Source: Streptomyces sp. NBC_01551
GTDB lineage: Bacteria; Actinomycetota; Actinomycetes; Streptomycetales; Streptomycetaceae
Direction of reading: 5' to 3'
Length of the DNA stretch: 64,000 nt
Assembly (NCBI RefSeq): GCF_026339935.1
Contig: NZ_JAPEPX010000001.1
Coordinates: forward strand, 1,966,501-2,030,500
The translations under genes and the position numbers were made by a program. This document shows, one piece after another, positions 21,053-25,731 of this stretch (the stretch's first letter is position 1; each line of letters starts with the position of its first letter). The notes under the pieces were generated by a model that made no database searches, was not told where the DNA came from, and saw only the letters and a program-made list of their open reading frames with translations.

Positions 21053-21090
21053 CGTCAGACGACGCCGTTCACGTCAGACGACGATGTTGA
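21053..21090. repeat. 19-bp direct repeat over the leuS stop codon
   Basis: CGTCAGACGACG occurs at 21053-21064 and again at 21072-21083, each followed by a related 7-mer, giving a 19-bp period. The second copy contains the leuS TGA (21074-21076) and its last codons. Confidence 0.65.
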
Positions 21091-23956
21091 CCAGCTTCGG
21101 CGCGCGCACGATCACCTTGCGGATCTCCGCACCGCCCAGCGCCGCCACGACCGCCTCGTCGCCCAGCGCCAGCTTCTCCAGGTCGCCCTCGGAGATCGTC
21201 GGCGCCACCTCCAGCCGCGCCTTGACCTTGCCCTTGATCTGCACCACGCAGGTCACGGTCTCGTCCACGACGTACGCCGGGTCCGCGACCGGGAAGTCCT
21301 GGTGGACGACCGACTCGCGGTGCCCCAGCCGGTGCCACAGCTCCTCCGCGACGTGCGGGGCCAGCGGCGCGACCAGCAGCACCAGCCGCTCCGCGACGGA
21401 CCGCTCCAGCGGCCGGCCCGCCTTCGTCAGGGCGTTGTTCAGCTCGGTGATCTTCGCGATGGCGGTGTTGAACCGCAGCCCCGCCAGGTCGCCGCCGGCT
21501 CCGTCGATCGCCTTGTGCAGCGCGCGCAGCGTGTCCTCGGCGGGCTCGGCGTCGACGACCGTCACCGCGCCCGTCTCCTCGTCCACGATGTTGCGCCACA
21601 GGCGCTGCAGCAGCCGGTACTGGCCCACCACGGCCCGGGTGTCCCACGGACGCGAGACGTCCAGCGGGCCCATCGCCATCTCGTACAGGCGCAGCGTGTC
21701 GGCGCCGTACTCCTCGCAGATCTCGTCGGGCGTGACGGCGTTCTTGAGGGACTTGCCCATCTTGCCCAGCTCGCGCTTGACCGGCTCGCCCTCGAAGAAG
21801 AACTTGCCGTCGCGCTCCTCGACCTCGGTGGCCGTGACCGGGAAGCCGCGCTCGTCGCGGTAGACGTAGGCCTGGATCATGCCCTGGTTGAACAGCTTGT
21901 GGAACGGCTCGACCGAGGAGACGTGGCCCAGGTCGAACAGCACCTTCGACCAGAAGCGCGCGTACAGCAGGTGCAGTACGGCGTGCTCGGCGCCGCCCAC
22001 GTACAGGTCGACGCCGCCGTGCGGCTGGCCCTCGCGCGGGCCCATCCAGTACTGCTCGATCTCCGGGTCCACCAGCGCCGACGCGTTGTTCGGGTCCAGG
22101 TAGCGCAGCTCGTACCAGCAGGAGCCGGCCCAGTTCGGCATGGTGTTGGTCTCGCGGCGGTACGCGCGCACGCCGCGCCCGTCGCCCAGGTCCAGCTCCA
22201 CGTTGACCCAGTCGGCCTTGCGCGACAGCGGGGTCTCCGGCTGCGACAGCGCGTCGTCCGGCTCGAAGGTGCGCGGCGAGTAGTCCTCGACCTCCGGCAG
22301 CTCCAGCGGCAGCATCGACTCGGGCAGCGAGTGCGCGACGCCGTCCTCGTCGTAGACGATCGGGAAGGGCTCGCCCCAGTACCGCTGGCGGCTGAACAGC
22401 CAGTCGCGCAGGCGGAAGTTGACGGTGCCCTCGCCGATGCCGCGCTCGGCCAGCCAGTCGGTGATGGCGGCCTTGGCCTCGGCGACGCCCAGGCCGTCCA
22501 GGGAGATGCCCTCGCCCACCGAGTTGACCAGCGTGGCGTCGTGGGAGACGAACGCCTCGTCCCACTCGGCCGGGTCGGTCCCGCGGCCGTCGCTCGGCTG
22601 CACGACGCAGCGCATCGGCAGCTCGAAGGCGCGCGCGAACTCGAAGTCTCGGCTGTCGTGCGCCGGGACGGCCATGATCGCGCCGGTGCCGTAGCCCATC
22701 AGCACGTAGTCGGCGATGAAGACCGGGACCTTGTCGCCGCTGACCGGGTTGATCGCGTACTCGCCGGTGAAGACACCGGTCTTGTCCTTGGCCTCGGCCT
22801 GCCGCTCGACGTCGGACTTCGAGGCGGCCTGCTTGCGGTAGGCCGCGACGGCCTCCGCGGGGGTGGCGTGCCCGCCGGTCCACACGTCGTGGGTGCCCTC
22901 GGGCCAGGCGGCCGGGATGAACTTCTCGACCAGCGGGTGCTCGGGCGCCAGCACCATGTAGGTGGCGCCGAACAGGGTGTCGGGGCGGGTGGTGAAGACG
23001 GTGATCGCCTCGTCGCCCAGCGCGAAGTCGACGCGCGCGCCCTCGCTGCGGCCGATCCAGTTGCGCTGCTGCAGCTTGATGGCCTCGGGCCAGTCCAGCG
23101 CGTCCAGGTCGTCCAGCAGGCGGTCCGCGTAGGCGGTGATCCGCATGTTCCACTGGCTCAGCTTGGCCTTGAAGACGGGGAAGTTGCCGCGCTCGGAACG
23201 GCCGTCCGCGGTGACCTCCTCGTTGGCCAGGACGGTGCCCAGGCCCGGGCACCAGTTCACGGGCGCGTCGGAGGAGTACGCCAGCCGGTACTCGTTCAGT
23301 ACGTCGGCCCGCTCGCCGGCGGTCAGCTCCGCCCAGGCGCGGCCGCCCGCGACGCCGGCCGGGACCTCACGGGAGCCGTCCTCGAAGGCGGCGATCAGCT
23401 CGGCGATCGGCCGGGCCTTCCTGGCCTGCGCGTCGTACCAGGAGTTGTAGATCTGCAGGAAGATCCACTGGGTCCACTTGTAGTAGTCCGGGTCGATCGT
23501 GGCGAACGAGCGGCGCTTGTCGTGGCCCAGGCCCAGGCGGCGCAGCTGGACCTTCATGTTCTCGATGTTCGCCTCGGTCGACACGCGCGGGTGCGTGCCG
23601 GTCTGCACGGCGTACTGCTCGGCCGGCAGGCCGAAGGCGTCGAAGCCCAGGGTGTGCAGGACGTTGTGGCCGGTCATCCGCTGGTGGCGGGCGTAGACGT
23701 CGGTGGCGATGTACCCGAGCGGGTGCCCGACGTGCAGGCCCGCACCGGACGGGTACGGGAACATGTCCATGATGAACTTCTTGGGCCGCGCGACGACCGC
23801 GGGGTCCCCAGCCAGGTCACCGGTCGGGTTGGGGGCCTCGTACGTGCCCTGTGCGTCCCATACGTCCTGCCAGCGTGCCTCGATGTCGGCGGCCATGGCA
23901 GCCGTGTAGCGGTGCGCCTCGGCCGCCTCGGGGGCCGGGGTGTTCGTCTCGCTCAT
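21074..23956 (-). CDS. leuS: Leucyl-tRNA synthetase
   Basis: Class I aminoacyl-tRNA synthetase, 960 aa, charging tRNA-Leu. The HIGH-type motif HVGH is at residues 75-78 within [17 protein letters not shown], and the KMSKS-type motif is KMGKS at 732-736. The CP1 editing domain lies between them, and an anticodon-binding helical domain ends the protein. The ATG at 23956 is chosen because the upstream in-frame extension runs through the attenuator and tRNA region. Expression is probably controlled by the leader peptide and terminator upstream. A 19-bp repeat covers its stop codon. Confidence 0.97.
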
Positions 23957-24006
23957 GATTTCTGAAGCTCCATCGATCGTCTCTGCCGTCTCTGCCTGCC
24001 CAAACG

Positions 24007-24030
24007 AAAAAACCCCTCGCACAGGAGGGG
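24007..24030 (-). terminator. leuS leader attenuator terminator
   Basis: On the minus strand, CCCCTC (24030-24025), a 6-nt loop, GAGGGG (24018-24013) and TTTTTT (24012-24007). The T-run is unusual in this GC-rich window, where other terminators lack one. It lies 50 nt before the leuS ATG, so it must act as an attenuator of leuS and not as the end of an upstream unit. Confidence 0.85.
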
Positions 24031-24080
24031 GCGCCGCGCCGATGCCGACCGTTTCGAAAGGTCGGCGCTGATCAGCGCGG
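24031..24080 (-). promoter_or_regulatory. leuS leader: alternative RNA hairpin region
   Basis: GCCGACC (24066-24060) pairs with GGTCGGC (24050-24044) around TTTCGAAAC, between the leader peptide stop and the terminator. The last leader codons CCGCGC (24080-24075) can instead pair with GCGCGG (24039-24034). Such competing pairings are what an attenuation switch needs; which form prevails is inference. Confidence 0.6.
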
Positions 24081-24110
24081 CTCGGTAAGCAGAAGGCGTA
24101 CGGCACGCAT
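24072..24110 (-). CDS. Leucine-rich leader peptide of leuS
   Basis: A 12-residue open frame, [12 protein letters not shown], with three consecutive leucine codons (CTT CTG CTT) followed by a TGA. It ends 42 nt before the T-run terminator and 115 nt before leuS. Stalling at the leucine codons when charged tRNA-Leu is scarce would prevent terminator formation, the classical attenuation scheme. A TACCCT -10-like hexamer (24122-24117) ends 6 nt before the ATG, so the transcript may start at or next to the ATG and be leaderless. The peptide itself needs no function. Confidence 0.82.
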
Positions 24111-24170
24111 GGCGTCAGGGTACCGCAGCGGCCCCCGCCACCGCTCGGCCGTCCACCGTGCGGGCACAAC

Positions 24171-24207
24171 GAGAAGCGGGCCACCCGATCCGGGTGACCC
24201 GCTTCTC
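24171..24207 (-). terminator. Terminator of the first tRNA-Ala gene
   Basis: GAGAAGCGGG-C-CACCCG (24171-24187) pairs with CGGGTG-A-CCCGCTTCTC (24191-24207) with one mismatch and a 3-nt loop, starting 8 nt past the tRNA 3' end. Confidence 0.85.
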
Positions 24208-24214
24208 TTCACTG

Positions 24215-24287
24215 TGGAGCTAAGGAGAATTGAACTCCTGACCTCCTGCATGCCATGCAGGCGCTCTACCAACTGAGCTATAGCCCC
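24215..24287 (-). tRNA. tRNA-Ala (anticodon GGC), copy 1
   Basis: 73 nt beginning GGGGCTATAGCTCAGTTGGTAG. Acceptor arms GGGGCTA/TAGCTCC, D-loop AGCTCAGTTGGTAGAGC, anticodon stem CCTGC/GCAGG around ATGGCAT (GGC, alanine) and T-arm with TTCAATT are all visible. CCA is not encoded. It is identical to the copy at 24851-24923 and is followed by its own terminator. Confidence 0.95.
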
Positions 24288-24430
24288 TTGTCTTGCCCGC
24301 CGCTTCGGTTTCCCTTGCCGGTTCCCCTTGGCGACGTCCCAAACATTACACGGTCATGGCCCTGGTCCAAAAATCGGTTTCCACCGGGCCGGGGCCATGT
24401 CCGAAATGCTCCACTCCGTCAGGCTCTCAG

Positions 24431-24478
24431 GCCTTCAAGCCGCCAGACCCTCAAGCCGCCAAGCCGCCAAGCCTCAGG
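24431..24478. repeat. 8-bp tandem array over the stop codon of the zinc-ribbon gene
   Basis: Six octamers of the form GCC(G/T)(C/T)CAA run from 24431 to 24478, with the two best copies at 24455-24470. The last unit covers the stop of the minus-strand zinc-ribbon gene (24474-24476). The rest of the 186-nt gap between tRNA copy 1 and this gene holds nothing I can identify. Confidence 0.7.
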
Positions 24479-24707
24479 CTCTCGCGAACTGGTAGAACCG
24501 CTTGAGCGTGCAGTGCTCGTCGAGCAGCCGGCCGTAGATCGGCTCCCCCTCCAGCTCGCGGTACGTCTCGATCGGGTCGCCTTTTATGATCAGCGCCCGC
24601 GCGCATTCCTCGCACCAGTACTGGTAGTCGGGGTTGACCGGGTCCATGTCCCGCACGATCGGCGTGCCGTTGTTGCACCAGTCGCACCGCCGCCGGTGTG
24701 CACCCAT
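24474..24707 (-). CDS. Small zinc-ribbon protein, function unknown
   Basis: 77 aa with two CxxC knuckles, CDWC (residues 8-11) and CEEC (32-35), separated by about 20 residues, the spacing of a zinc ribbon. The C-terminal half (ARALIIKGDPIETYRELEGEPIYGR) is probably helical. It is a conserved-looking actinobacterial small protein but I do not recognise a named family. It lies between two identical tRNA-Ala genes in the same direction, and its stop codon is within an octamer repeat. Confidence 0.75.
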   Translation of the reverse strand: MGAHRRRCDWCNNGTPIVRDMDPVNPDYQYWCEECARALIIKGDPIETYRELEGEPIYGRLLDEHCTLKRFYQFARA

Positions 24708-24814
24708 CCGTCAGCGACTCCCTCCCGCGTCGGGCCGTCGTGTCCCCCTCCGGCCGTCCGATTCTGCCATGACCGTACGGGCAGGGTCAGCCTGCGCAAA
24801 AGGAGCAAACGCAA

Positions 24815-24844
24815 GGATCCCGCCCCCTGTTGGGGACGGGATCC
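24815..24844 (-). terminator. Terminator of the second tRNA-Ala gene
   Basis: GGATCCCG-C-CCCC pairs with GGGG-A-CGGGATCC (24815-24844) across a short loop, starting 6 nt past the tRNA 3' end. Confidence 0.85.
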
Positions 24845-24850
24845 TGATTG

Positions 24851-24923
24851 TGGAGCTAAGGAGAATTGAACTCCTGACCTCCTGCATGCCATGCAGGCGC
24901 TCTACCAACTGAGCTATAGCCCC
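24851..24923 (-). tRNA. tRNA-Ala (anticodon GGC), copy 2
   Basis: Identical over all 73 nt to the copy at 24215-24287 and in the same orientation, 636 bp away. The cloverleaf and GGC anticodon are as described for copy 1, and no CCA is encoded. It has its own hairpin terminator, so the two copies are probably separate transcription units. Confidence 0.95.
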
Positions 24924-25056
24924 GCTCTCCGCTGCGCTCCCCCCGTTTCCGGTGTTCTGCGCTGCGAACAAGAAGAACTCTAGCCTGTGACCAGCCGGAA
25001 AGTGAAATCCGGGTGGGAGCCCCGGTCCGGAGCCGCCCGAAGCCCTGCGGGAGGCC

Positions 25057-25731
25057 TCAGTCGTCGTCGCCGAGGACGGGTTCCGGCAGCGTGCCGGCGT
25101 TGTGCTCCATCAGCCGCCAGCCGCGCGCGCCCTCGCCGAGGACGGACCAGCAGCAGTTGGAAAGCCCGCCCAGGCCCTCCCAGTAGTACGACTCCAGGCC
25201 GAGCAGGCGGCCGATGGTCGTACGGATGGTGCCGCCGTGGCTGACCACGACGAGCGTGCCGCCCTCCGGCAGCCGGTCGGCGTGCGCCAGCACCACCGGC
25301 GCGGCCCGGTCGGCGACCTCGGTCTCCAGCTCGCCGCCGCCGCGGCGCACGGGCTCACCGCGCTTCCACGCCGCGTACTGCTCGCCGTACTTGCCGAGGA
25401 TCTCGTCGTGCGTGAGGCCCTGCCACTCGCCGGCGTACGTCTCGCGCAGCGCCGCGTCGTGCGTCACGGGCAGGCCCGTGACGGCGGCGAGCTCGGCGGC
25501 CGTGTTGGCGGCCCGCCGCAGGTCGGAGGCCACGATGGCGTCCGGCTTCAGCGAGGCGAGCAGCCGGGCGGCGCGGCGCGCCTGCGCCACACCCGTCTCG
25601 GTCAGCTCGATGTCCGTGGAGCCCTGGAAGCGGCGCTCCAGGTTCCACGAGGTCTGGCCGTGCCGCCAGAGGACGATCTTGCGGCCGGTCTTGCCGGTCC
25701 TGGCGGTCGTGCCGGTGCTCGTCGCGCTCAG
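25057..25731 (-). CDS. Histidine phosphatase family protein with an apparent CTG start
   Basis: Phosphoglycerate-mutase-like phosphatase, 224 aa. The catalytic RHG motif is at residues 23-25 (IVLWRHGQTSWNLERRFQG), with LRETYAGEWQG and VVSHGGTIRTT carrying the later catalytic residues. The first ATG/GTG/TTG in frame is a GTG at 25590, which would delete the RHG motif. The frame opens only at 25737, and the single NTG codon before RHG is the CTG at 25731, overlapping the rsfS stop as CTGA. I therefore take CTG as the start. It is coupled to rsfS. In many actinomycetes this neighbour of rsfS is annotated as a phosphatase of unknown substrate. Confidence 0.85.
   Translation of the reverse strand: MSATSTGTTARTGKTGRKIVLWRHGQTSWNLERRFQGSTDIELTETGVAQARRAARLLASLKPDAIVASDLRRAANTAAELAAVTGLPVTHDAALRETYAGEWQGLTHDEILGKYGEQYAAWKRGEPVRRGGGELETEVADRAAPVVLAHADRLPEGGTLVVVSHGGTIRTTIGRLLGLESYYWEGLGGLSNCCWSVLGEGARGWRLMEHNAGTLPEPVLGDDD

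Follow-up and report, generated by a model that had tools for sequence, protein, structure and literature searches.

The leucine--tRNA ligase gene leuS of Streptomyces sp. NBC_01551 is very probably preceded by the Streptomyces leuS attenuator (leuL2), a leaderless element that would sense charged tRNA-Leu through ribosome-mediated transcription attenuation. This reading is well supported and has already been published for the gene in this genus; what is new here is the breadth of the element, its spacing rules, its rare-codon anchor, and an abutting layout common to leaders ahead of cimA and ilvB. Within the stretch of DNA that was analysed (64,000 bases, hereafter the window), the whole element sits on the minus strand between a tRNA-Ala gene (24287-24214) and leuS (ATG at 23956), and consists of the following features:

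24122-24117, minus strand: -10 box TACCCT, with a 6-nt spacer to the leader ATG at 24110, a leaderless promoter pattern
24110-24072, minus strand: leader ORF with its TGA, 12 residues, 13 codons counting the stop
24095-24087, minus strand: control codons CTT CTG CTT, the last CTT ending 5 nt before stem A
24081-24071, minus strand: 5' arm of stem A, GCCGCGCTGAT, spanning the last two codons of the leader and its stop
24066-24060 with 24050-24044 (span 24044..24066), minus strand: inner hairpin GCCGACC/GGTCGGC, enclosed by stem A
24043-24033, minus strand: 3' arm of stem A, ATCGGCGCGGC, pairing with 24081-24071 over 11 bp
24030-24013 (hairpin) and 24012-24007 (T6), minus strand: intrinsic terminator CCCCTC-CTGTGC-GAGGGG-T6, predicted from sequence and folding
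24020..24021, minus strand: candidate RNA polymerase pause site TGT-G, its Y 12 nt after stem A
21074..23956, minus strand: leuS, leucine--tRNA ligase (TIGR00396, 904.6 bits, cutoff 548.4)

All of the sequence features that an earlier note on this DNA had described (the leader, CTT CTG CTT, the hairpins, the T6 and leuS) were found again on the minus strand. As in leuL2, a short ORF with a run of leucine codons lies directly upstream of leuS, its control codons match the amino acid of the downstream gene, and a hairpin with a U tract is present between the leader and leuS. The note's remark that the T-run terminator is unlike other hairpins also held, as the window (72% G+C) has no other stretch of at least six A or T than this T6, and only the leuS-leader site has a T6 tail among the five terminator-like sites in 23900-25100, a region for which shuffles gave a mean of 0.5 such sites. 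The terminator sequence occurs at four places in the genome at up to two mismatches, one of them the leuS site, versus 12 for a reversed control pattern; the pattern being less frequent than its control, there is no family of such terminators in this genome. The 111-nt leader folded better than its shuffles (z -2.58; 2 of 200 shuffles equally good). The pairing CCGCGC/GCGCGG, which had been thought to compete with the GCCGACC hairpin, is instead part of the 11-bp stem A that encloses this hairpin, and both coexist in the predicted fold.

The surroundings of the element were also inspected. Two tRNA-Ala(GGC) genes, at 24214-24287 and 24850-24923, lie upstream of leuS about 560 bases apart and are identical across the 75 bases compared; a long hairpin that lacks a T run (about 24205-24170) comes after the nearer one. 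Right after the U tract, many of 21 inspected leaders carry an RTGYCCGG-like motif, for example TTTTCATGTCCGGA, and the window has a diverged form of it at 24007-23990.

For S. coelicolor and S. avermitilis, classical attenuators upstream of leuS were predicted in 2005 (PMC1262725), a prediction to which the earlier note had correctly referred, and in 2021 leuL2 of S. lividans was reported as a leaderless leader of leuS with a hairpin and a uridine stretch after it (PMC8079986). The window shares with leuL2 of S. lividans TK24 its place, its leaderless start pattern, and its hairpin and U tract, and the two peptides differ at one residue. When the text of these reports, as distinct from the 2005 antiterminator figure, was compared with the element in the window, no difference of kind was apparent from S. 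lividans leuL2 or from the leuS attenuators of S. coelicolor and S. avermitilis. Among the reports consulted, a mapped 5' end for such a leuS leader is given for S. lividans alone, and in the window it is the promoter spacing that points to a leaderless start. Such a start had been considered unusual for attenuation, but the S. lividans leaders leuL1, leuL2, trpL1, trpL2, thrL, and metL are all six reported to be leaderless (PMC8079986), and leaderless attenuation is therefore not unusual in the phylum.

For comparison with relatives, 80 leuS loci were taken from named genomes, 63 of which passed a first automatic parse. The covariance model R1 was built from an alignment of the window with 38 of these 63 parsed loci (A1), in which similar Streptomyces were thinned and L054 and L076 were left out as misaligned. 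A second, more diverse alignment (A2) contained the window, 43 of 46 references (L176, L179, and L187 being omitted for odd loops or length), and L046, L047, and L065; L139 and L171 had been left out earlier. The complete set of 141 regions consisted of 81 loci not picked by an RNA model, i.e. the 80 leuS loci and the window, and 60 loci found with R1, which itself models the leucine codons and the stems. Parsing failed for 29 regions, and removal of the wrong parses L039 and L171 from the remaining 112 left 110 leaders; visible leaders that the limits of the parser missed, such as L054, L056, L059, L071, L130, L145, L148, L172, L173, L181, L182, and L183, are not counted. The 81 loci picked without R1 yielded 63 parsed leaders, of which 61 have CTT at the fixed position described below, 41 have a stem A that abuts the terminator, and 60 have a TGYG; the corresponding numbers for the 60 loci found with R1 are 47 parsed, 42, 32, and 24.

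Across these leaders the promoter and the control codons keep fixed distances. A TANNNT box lies 6 nt (85 leaders) or 7 nt (24 leaders) before an in-frame start in 109 of the 110, L076 being the exception, in a test that allowed offsets of 4-9 and for which 2.5% of background positions have a box at any of the six offsets. At the position ending 5 nt before stem A, 103 leaders have the codon CTT, six have CTC, and one has TTC (L076 again, where the anchor is out of register), giving a leucine codon there in 109 of 110. The earlier note had proposed a leuS attenuator with a leaderless Leu-Leu-Leu leader peptide and had named a lack of conservation of the leader leucine codons among relatives as grounds for abandoning it; both the codon position and the promoter spacing support the proposal. 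CTT is otherwise rare, accounting for 50 of 5899 leucine codons when the first 2850 bases of each of the 80 leuS genes are counted, and in L131 the leucine run continues to a CTC, yet a CTT stays at the fixed position.

The first nucleotide of the leader stop codon falls at +7 of stem A in 99 of 110 leaders, at -2 in eight, and elsewhere in three, and from either +7 or -2 a terminating ribosome of the presumed footprint would cover the 5' arm of stem A. At eight loci (L051, L143, L152, L154, L155, L159, L175, and L176) the leader ends in a TAG at the foot of stem A, not inside it. The 5-nt gap between CTT and stem is nevertheless kept in all eight, suggesting selection on the stem rather than on the end of the peptide.

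Covariation indicates that stem A is real. When both stems were scored in the 39 sequences of A1, 95.3% of cells were paired and six pairs had changed on both sides. For stem A alone in the 47 more diverse sequences of A2, 97.9% of cells were paired and six of ten pairs had changed on both sides, levels of paired cells and two-sided changes that were reached in 0 of 500 shuffles, and slid controls were at most 59% paired. Further pair types were no more numerous than in shuffles, of which 394 of 500 were as high for the 39 sequences and 112 of 500 for the 47. In Micromonosporaceae the leader ends in PC in place of PR, and this Arg-to-Cys change is accompanied by a complementary change in the 3' arm (UA for CG, 12 of 39 rows), so that conservation at the end of the peptide appears to reflect the stem in the RNA. 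Across the 110 parsed leaders, the loop enclosed by stem A ranges from 3 to 47 nt, and the inner hairpin GCCGACC/GGTCGGC is variable and absent in many relatives.

R1 has one match in the window's own genome. Among sampled genomes, it matches 293 of 295 of the genus and 18 of 296 of the phylum, counts that rest on the model match itself, and 147 of 394 of the class, 40 of these 147 belonging to the window's own genus. From 148 matches in the class, 70 regions were fetched, and leuS lies downstream on the same strand in 58 of them, representing 24 families other than the window's own by family labels. The remaining regions comprise two near contig ends with leuS beyond view (L124 and L147), two weak matches that look like chance (L151 and L177), and eight of a sister type. 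Five matches in the phylum sample fall outside the class, a strong one ahead of leuS (L191) and four weak ones, two of which were fetched and have no leuS (L192 and L193). Judged by eye, no leader is visible at 13 of the 80 named loci, from Aeromicrobium, Cellulomonas, Actinotalea, Prescottella, Isoptericola, Mycolicibacterium, and Actinomycetaceae. A search with the window's leader DNA in the two same-genus genomes without an R1 match, G394 (79% complete) and G437, found nothing, a result that shows little. As judged from these alignments and matches, the leuS attenuator is more widespread than described, an element common to many families of the class. One genome (G209) has two leuS genes of different type (L139 and L140), with about 41% and 67% identity to the window protein; each has its own leucine leader, stem A, and terminator, L139 being partly masked.

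The eight sister-type regions carry isoleucine or mixed branched-chain codons in the leader (PSQVIIIVRRAG-like in seven) and a CANNNT box shortly before the start. Citramalate synthase is encoded downstream of L160 and L166 by model (TIGR00977) and of five more by matching N-terminal sequence, and the sister-type leader of L146 precedes ilvB. The cimA leaders (L160, L161, L162, L164, L166, L167, and L168; about bases 255-420 in reading orientation) have 13 residues with isoleucine codons, encoding III in six and LII in L160, and show the same stem-plus-terminator layout as at leuS. The cimA leader is thus a candidate isoleucine-sensing attenuator. A literature search that covered titles and abstract openings, with most subscription papers outside its scope, found no report of a cimA attenuator or of a leuS attenuator outside Streptomyces; passages of a paper on leader peptides and reinitiation (PMC4833913) have no leuS, and passages of a S. 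griseus Term-seq study (PMC8914203) have no text on leuS or attenuation.

Stem A and the terminator stand next to each other with little or no intervening sequence. Taking the maximal contiguous stem A, the gap to the terminator stem is 0 in 73 of 110 leaders and 1-3 nt in 29, and the two share 1-3 bases in eight, leaving 102 leaders, the window among them, with no shared base. A textbook pair of competing stems was therefore not found. The closeness is partly built in, as the parser took only terminators lying 0-4 nt downstream of stem A; when the terminator was chosen independently with the gap left free, the gap was 0 in 70 of 110 and within 3 nt in 106, and a wrong hairpin was chosen in four. 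For the 81 loci picked without an RNA model, an independent choice of the best terminator and of the best stem no more than 40 nt away from it gave a gap of 0 in 38, within 3 nt in 58, and of 5-35 nt in three, with no pair in 20.

A conserved antiterminator that shares bases with the terminator was not found among the 110 leaders, beyond the eight that share 1-3 bases, and extension of stem A into the terminator was likewise set aside, contiguous overlap occurring in only these eight. A scan of alignment columns over 75 leaders in 26 groups, for helices of at least four columns that are pairable in at least 80%, returned besides stem A and the terminator only slipped terminator arms, a pairing of GAGG with the T run, and a pairing of the leucine run with GAGGGG (seven columns, plus shifted forms of 4-5 columns). 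The last was not retained as an antiterminator, as it has a G-G mismatch in Streptomyces and CUN codons pair with a G-rich arm anyway. Ribosome-masked folding of 12 leaders in four ribosome states each gave a terminator probability of at least 0.79 in all cases except one, the window with a ribosome at the stop, where it was 0.47, opposite to the direction of our model. By geometry the position of the ribosome would switch stem A, but folding retains the terminator in all states of these 12 leaders, which argues against a textbook competing strand. Since folding predicts that stem A and the terminator coexist, an effect of abutment would have to act inside the transcribing complex, where folding would not see it.

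A candidate pause site is spaced accordingly in many leaders. Pause hairpins are reported to lie 11-12 nt upstream of the paused end, at which the bases are Y-1G+1 (PMC12288461). TGYG with its Y 11-13 nt after stem A occurs in 34 of 60 genus groups, whereas 2000 loop shuffles averaged 4.0 and did not exceed 11.6; most loci found with R1 formed a group each, so that certain genera may be represented repeatedly. It is missing at this distance in 26 of the 60 groups and in 23 of the 47 parsed loci found with R1. In the window, the Y of the candidate pause, 12 nt after stem A, fits the 10-13 nt layout from hairpin to Y-G, and the base at -10 is C where the consensus has G.

Several characterized systems resemble parts of this arrangement. 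In the classical attenuators of Escherichia coli, strands 2:3 and 3:4 share bases. The leuS leaders have in common with E. coli trpL, hisL, and leuL a leader peptide, a pause hairpin (probable in the leuS leaders; PMC9291695 for the pausing in E. coli), and an intrinsic terminator, but they look leaderless and their stem and terminator abut. For ilvB1 of M. tuberculosis, a proposed mechanism backed by reporters holds that a stalled ribosome allows the antiterminator to form while a ribosome at the stop blocks it, and a change of the control codons abolished induction (PMC13236596). The ilvB1NC leader resembles that of leuS in its control codons, in the proposed masking of the antiterminator by a ribosome at the stop, and in its U-tract terminator, and differs in its folds, which are described as mutually exclusive, its length of 166 nt, its LVVI codons, and its gene (PMC13236596). 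The ilvBNC operon of Corynebacterium glutamicum, like the leuS leader in our reading, has a leaderless mRNA, a CUU control codon, an antiterminator that adjoins the terminator, and proposed pausing; there, with support from mutants, antiterminator and terminator share a boundary trinucleotide, in contrast to the 102 of 110 leuS leaders that share no base (PMC11857589).

We propose that transcription starts at the leader ATG, where a ribosome would initiate without a Shine-Dalgarno site, and that the polymerase, after transcribing stem A, probably pauses within the terminator loop while stem A occupies its exit channel. When Leu-tRNA is plentiful, the ribosome would reach the TGA inside the 5' arm of stem A and prevent this stem from forming, so that the abutting U-tract terminator would fold and transcription would stop. 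When Leu-tRNA is short, the ribosome would stall on CTT CTG CTT, its leading edge just reaching the foot of stem A, and leave the stem free, and stem A, hard against the terminator, would then hinder its folding and allow leuS to be transcribed. The logic of ilvB1, the adjacency in ilvBNC, and the TGYG spacing point to a double role of stem A, as pause hairpin and as antiterminator, and abutment is the route by which we suppose it may exclude the terminator. More broadly, we suggest, tentatively and as a possibility somewhat short of probable, that leuS, cimA, and ilvB in actinomycetes share one leaderless design in which the freed stem is both pause hairpin and antiterminator, blocks the terminator by abutment (through steric or stacking effects at the polymerase exit) rather than by shared bases, and is anchored by a rare-codon CTT sensor ending exactly 5 nt before the stem.

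An explanation that we consider unlikely, though quite conceivable, is that stem A is only a pause or synchronisation hairpin and that antitermination depends on another, unrecognised pairing or on a protein or NusA/NusG effect. The TGYG 12 nt after stem A fits such hairpin-stabilised pausing, and folding lets stem A and the terminator coexist; against this, the scan of 75 leaders returned no helices besides the known stems other than the three named above, and the geometry of control codons, stem, and stop matches the antiterminator logic of ilvB1. There is also a slim chance that the response has the opposite sign, with a ribosome at the stop freeing the 3' arm GCGCGG to pair with the terminator loop CUGYGY and an excess of leucine raising leuS. 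By inspection this pairing is possible in Streptomyces leaders, and it would agree with the fall in terminator probability in the window to 0.47 with a ribosome at the stop. The other 11 leaders kept at least 0.79 in that state, however, and the pairing was rejected as an antiterminator, being absent from the conserved helices of the column scan and, by inspection, carrying an A-C mismatch in eight of the ten Micromonosporaceae of A1.

It is improbable, if marginally less so than a response of opposite sign, that the element is conserved and yet not leucine-responsive, comprising an unremarkable leaderless small ORF and a terminator that holds expression at a constant level, or acting through translation coupled to leuS. 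Mutation of the ilvB and leuA leaders in S. coelicolor did not give classical attenuator behaviour, as told in PMC1262725, which counts against our model and would be in keeping with a lack of response. The leucine codon, mostly the rare CTT, that 109 of 110 leaders keep at a fixed position, the terminator that sits between leader and leuS, and the isoleucine codons that replace leucine in the sister layout ahead of cimA all argue against an unresponsive element. The chance that a T-box or another known riboswitch is responsible is close to nil: T-boxes precede ileS in some Actinobacteria (PMC1262725), but no T-box or riboswitch matched the window at gathering score, nor did one appear among the four hits with E of at most 5 in 23950-24213, all of them sub-threshold Rfam matches that look like chance. 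A leaderless attenuator that senses charged tRNA-Leu is the reading that we prefer over these alternatives.

The locus itself is ordinary, an orthologue of a described attenuator. What had been predicted in two species and mapped in one more becomes an element common to many families of the class, with hard spacing rules: 6-7 nt from the -10 box to the start, 5 nt from the rare control codon to the stem, and the stem set against the terminator. If it is abutment and not shared strands that prevents termination, this would be a different way to build an attenuator. For the cell, the leader very probably raises the enzyme that charges leucine tRNA when charged leucine is short.
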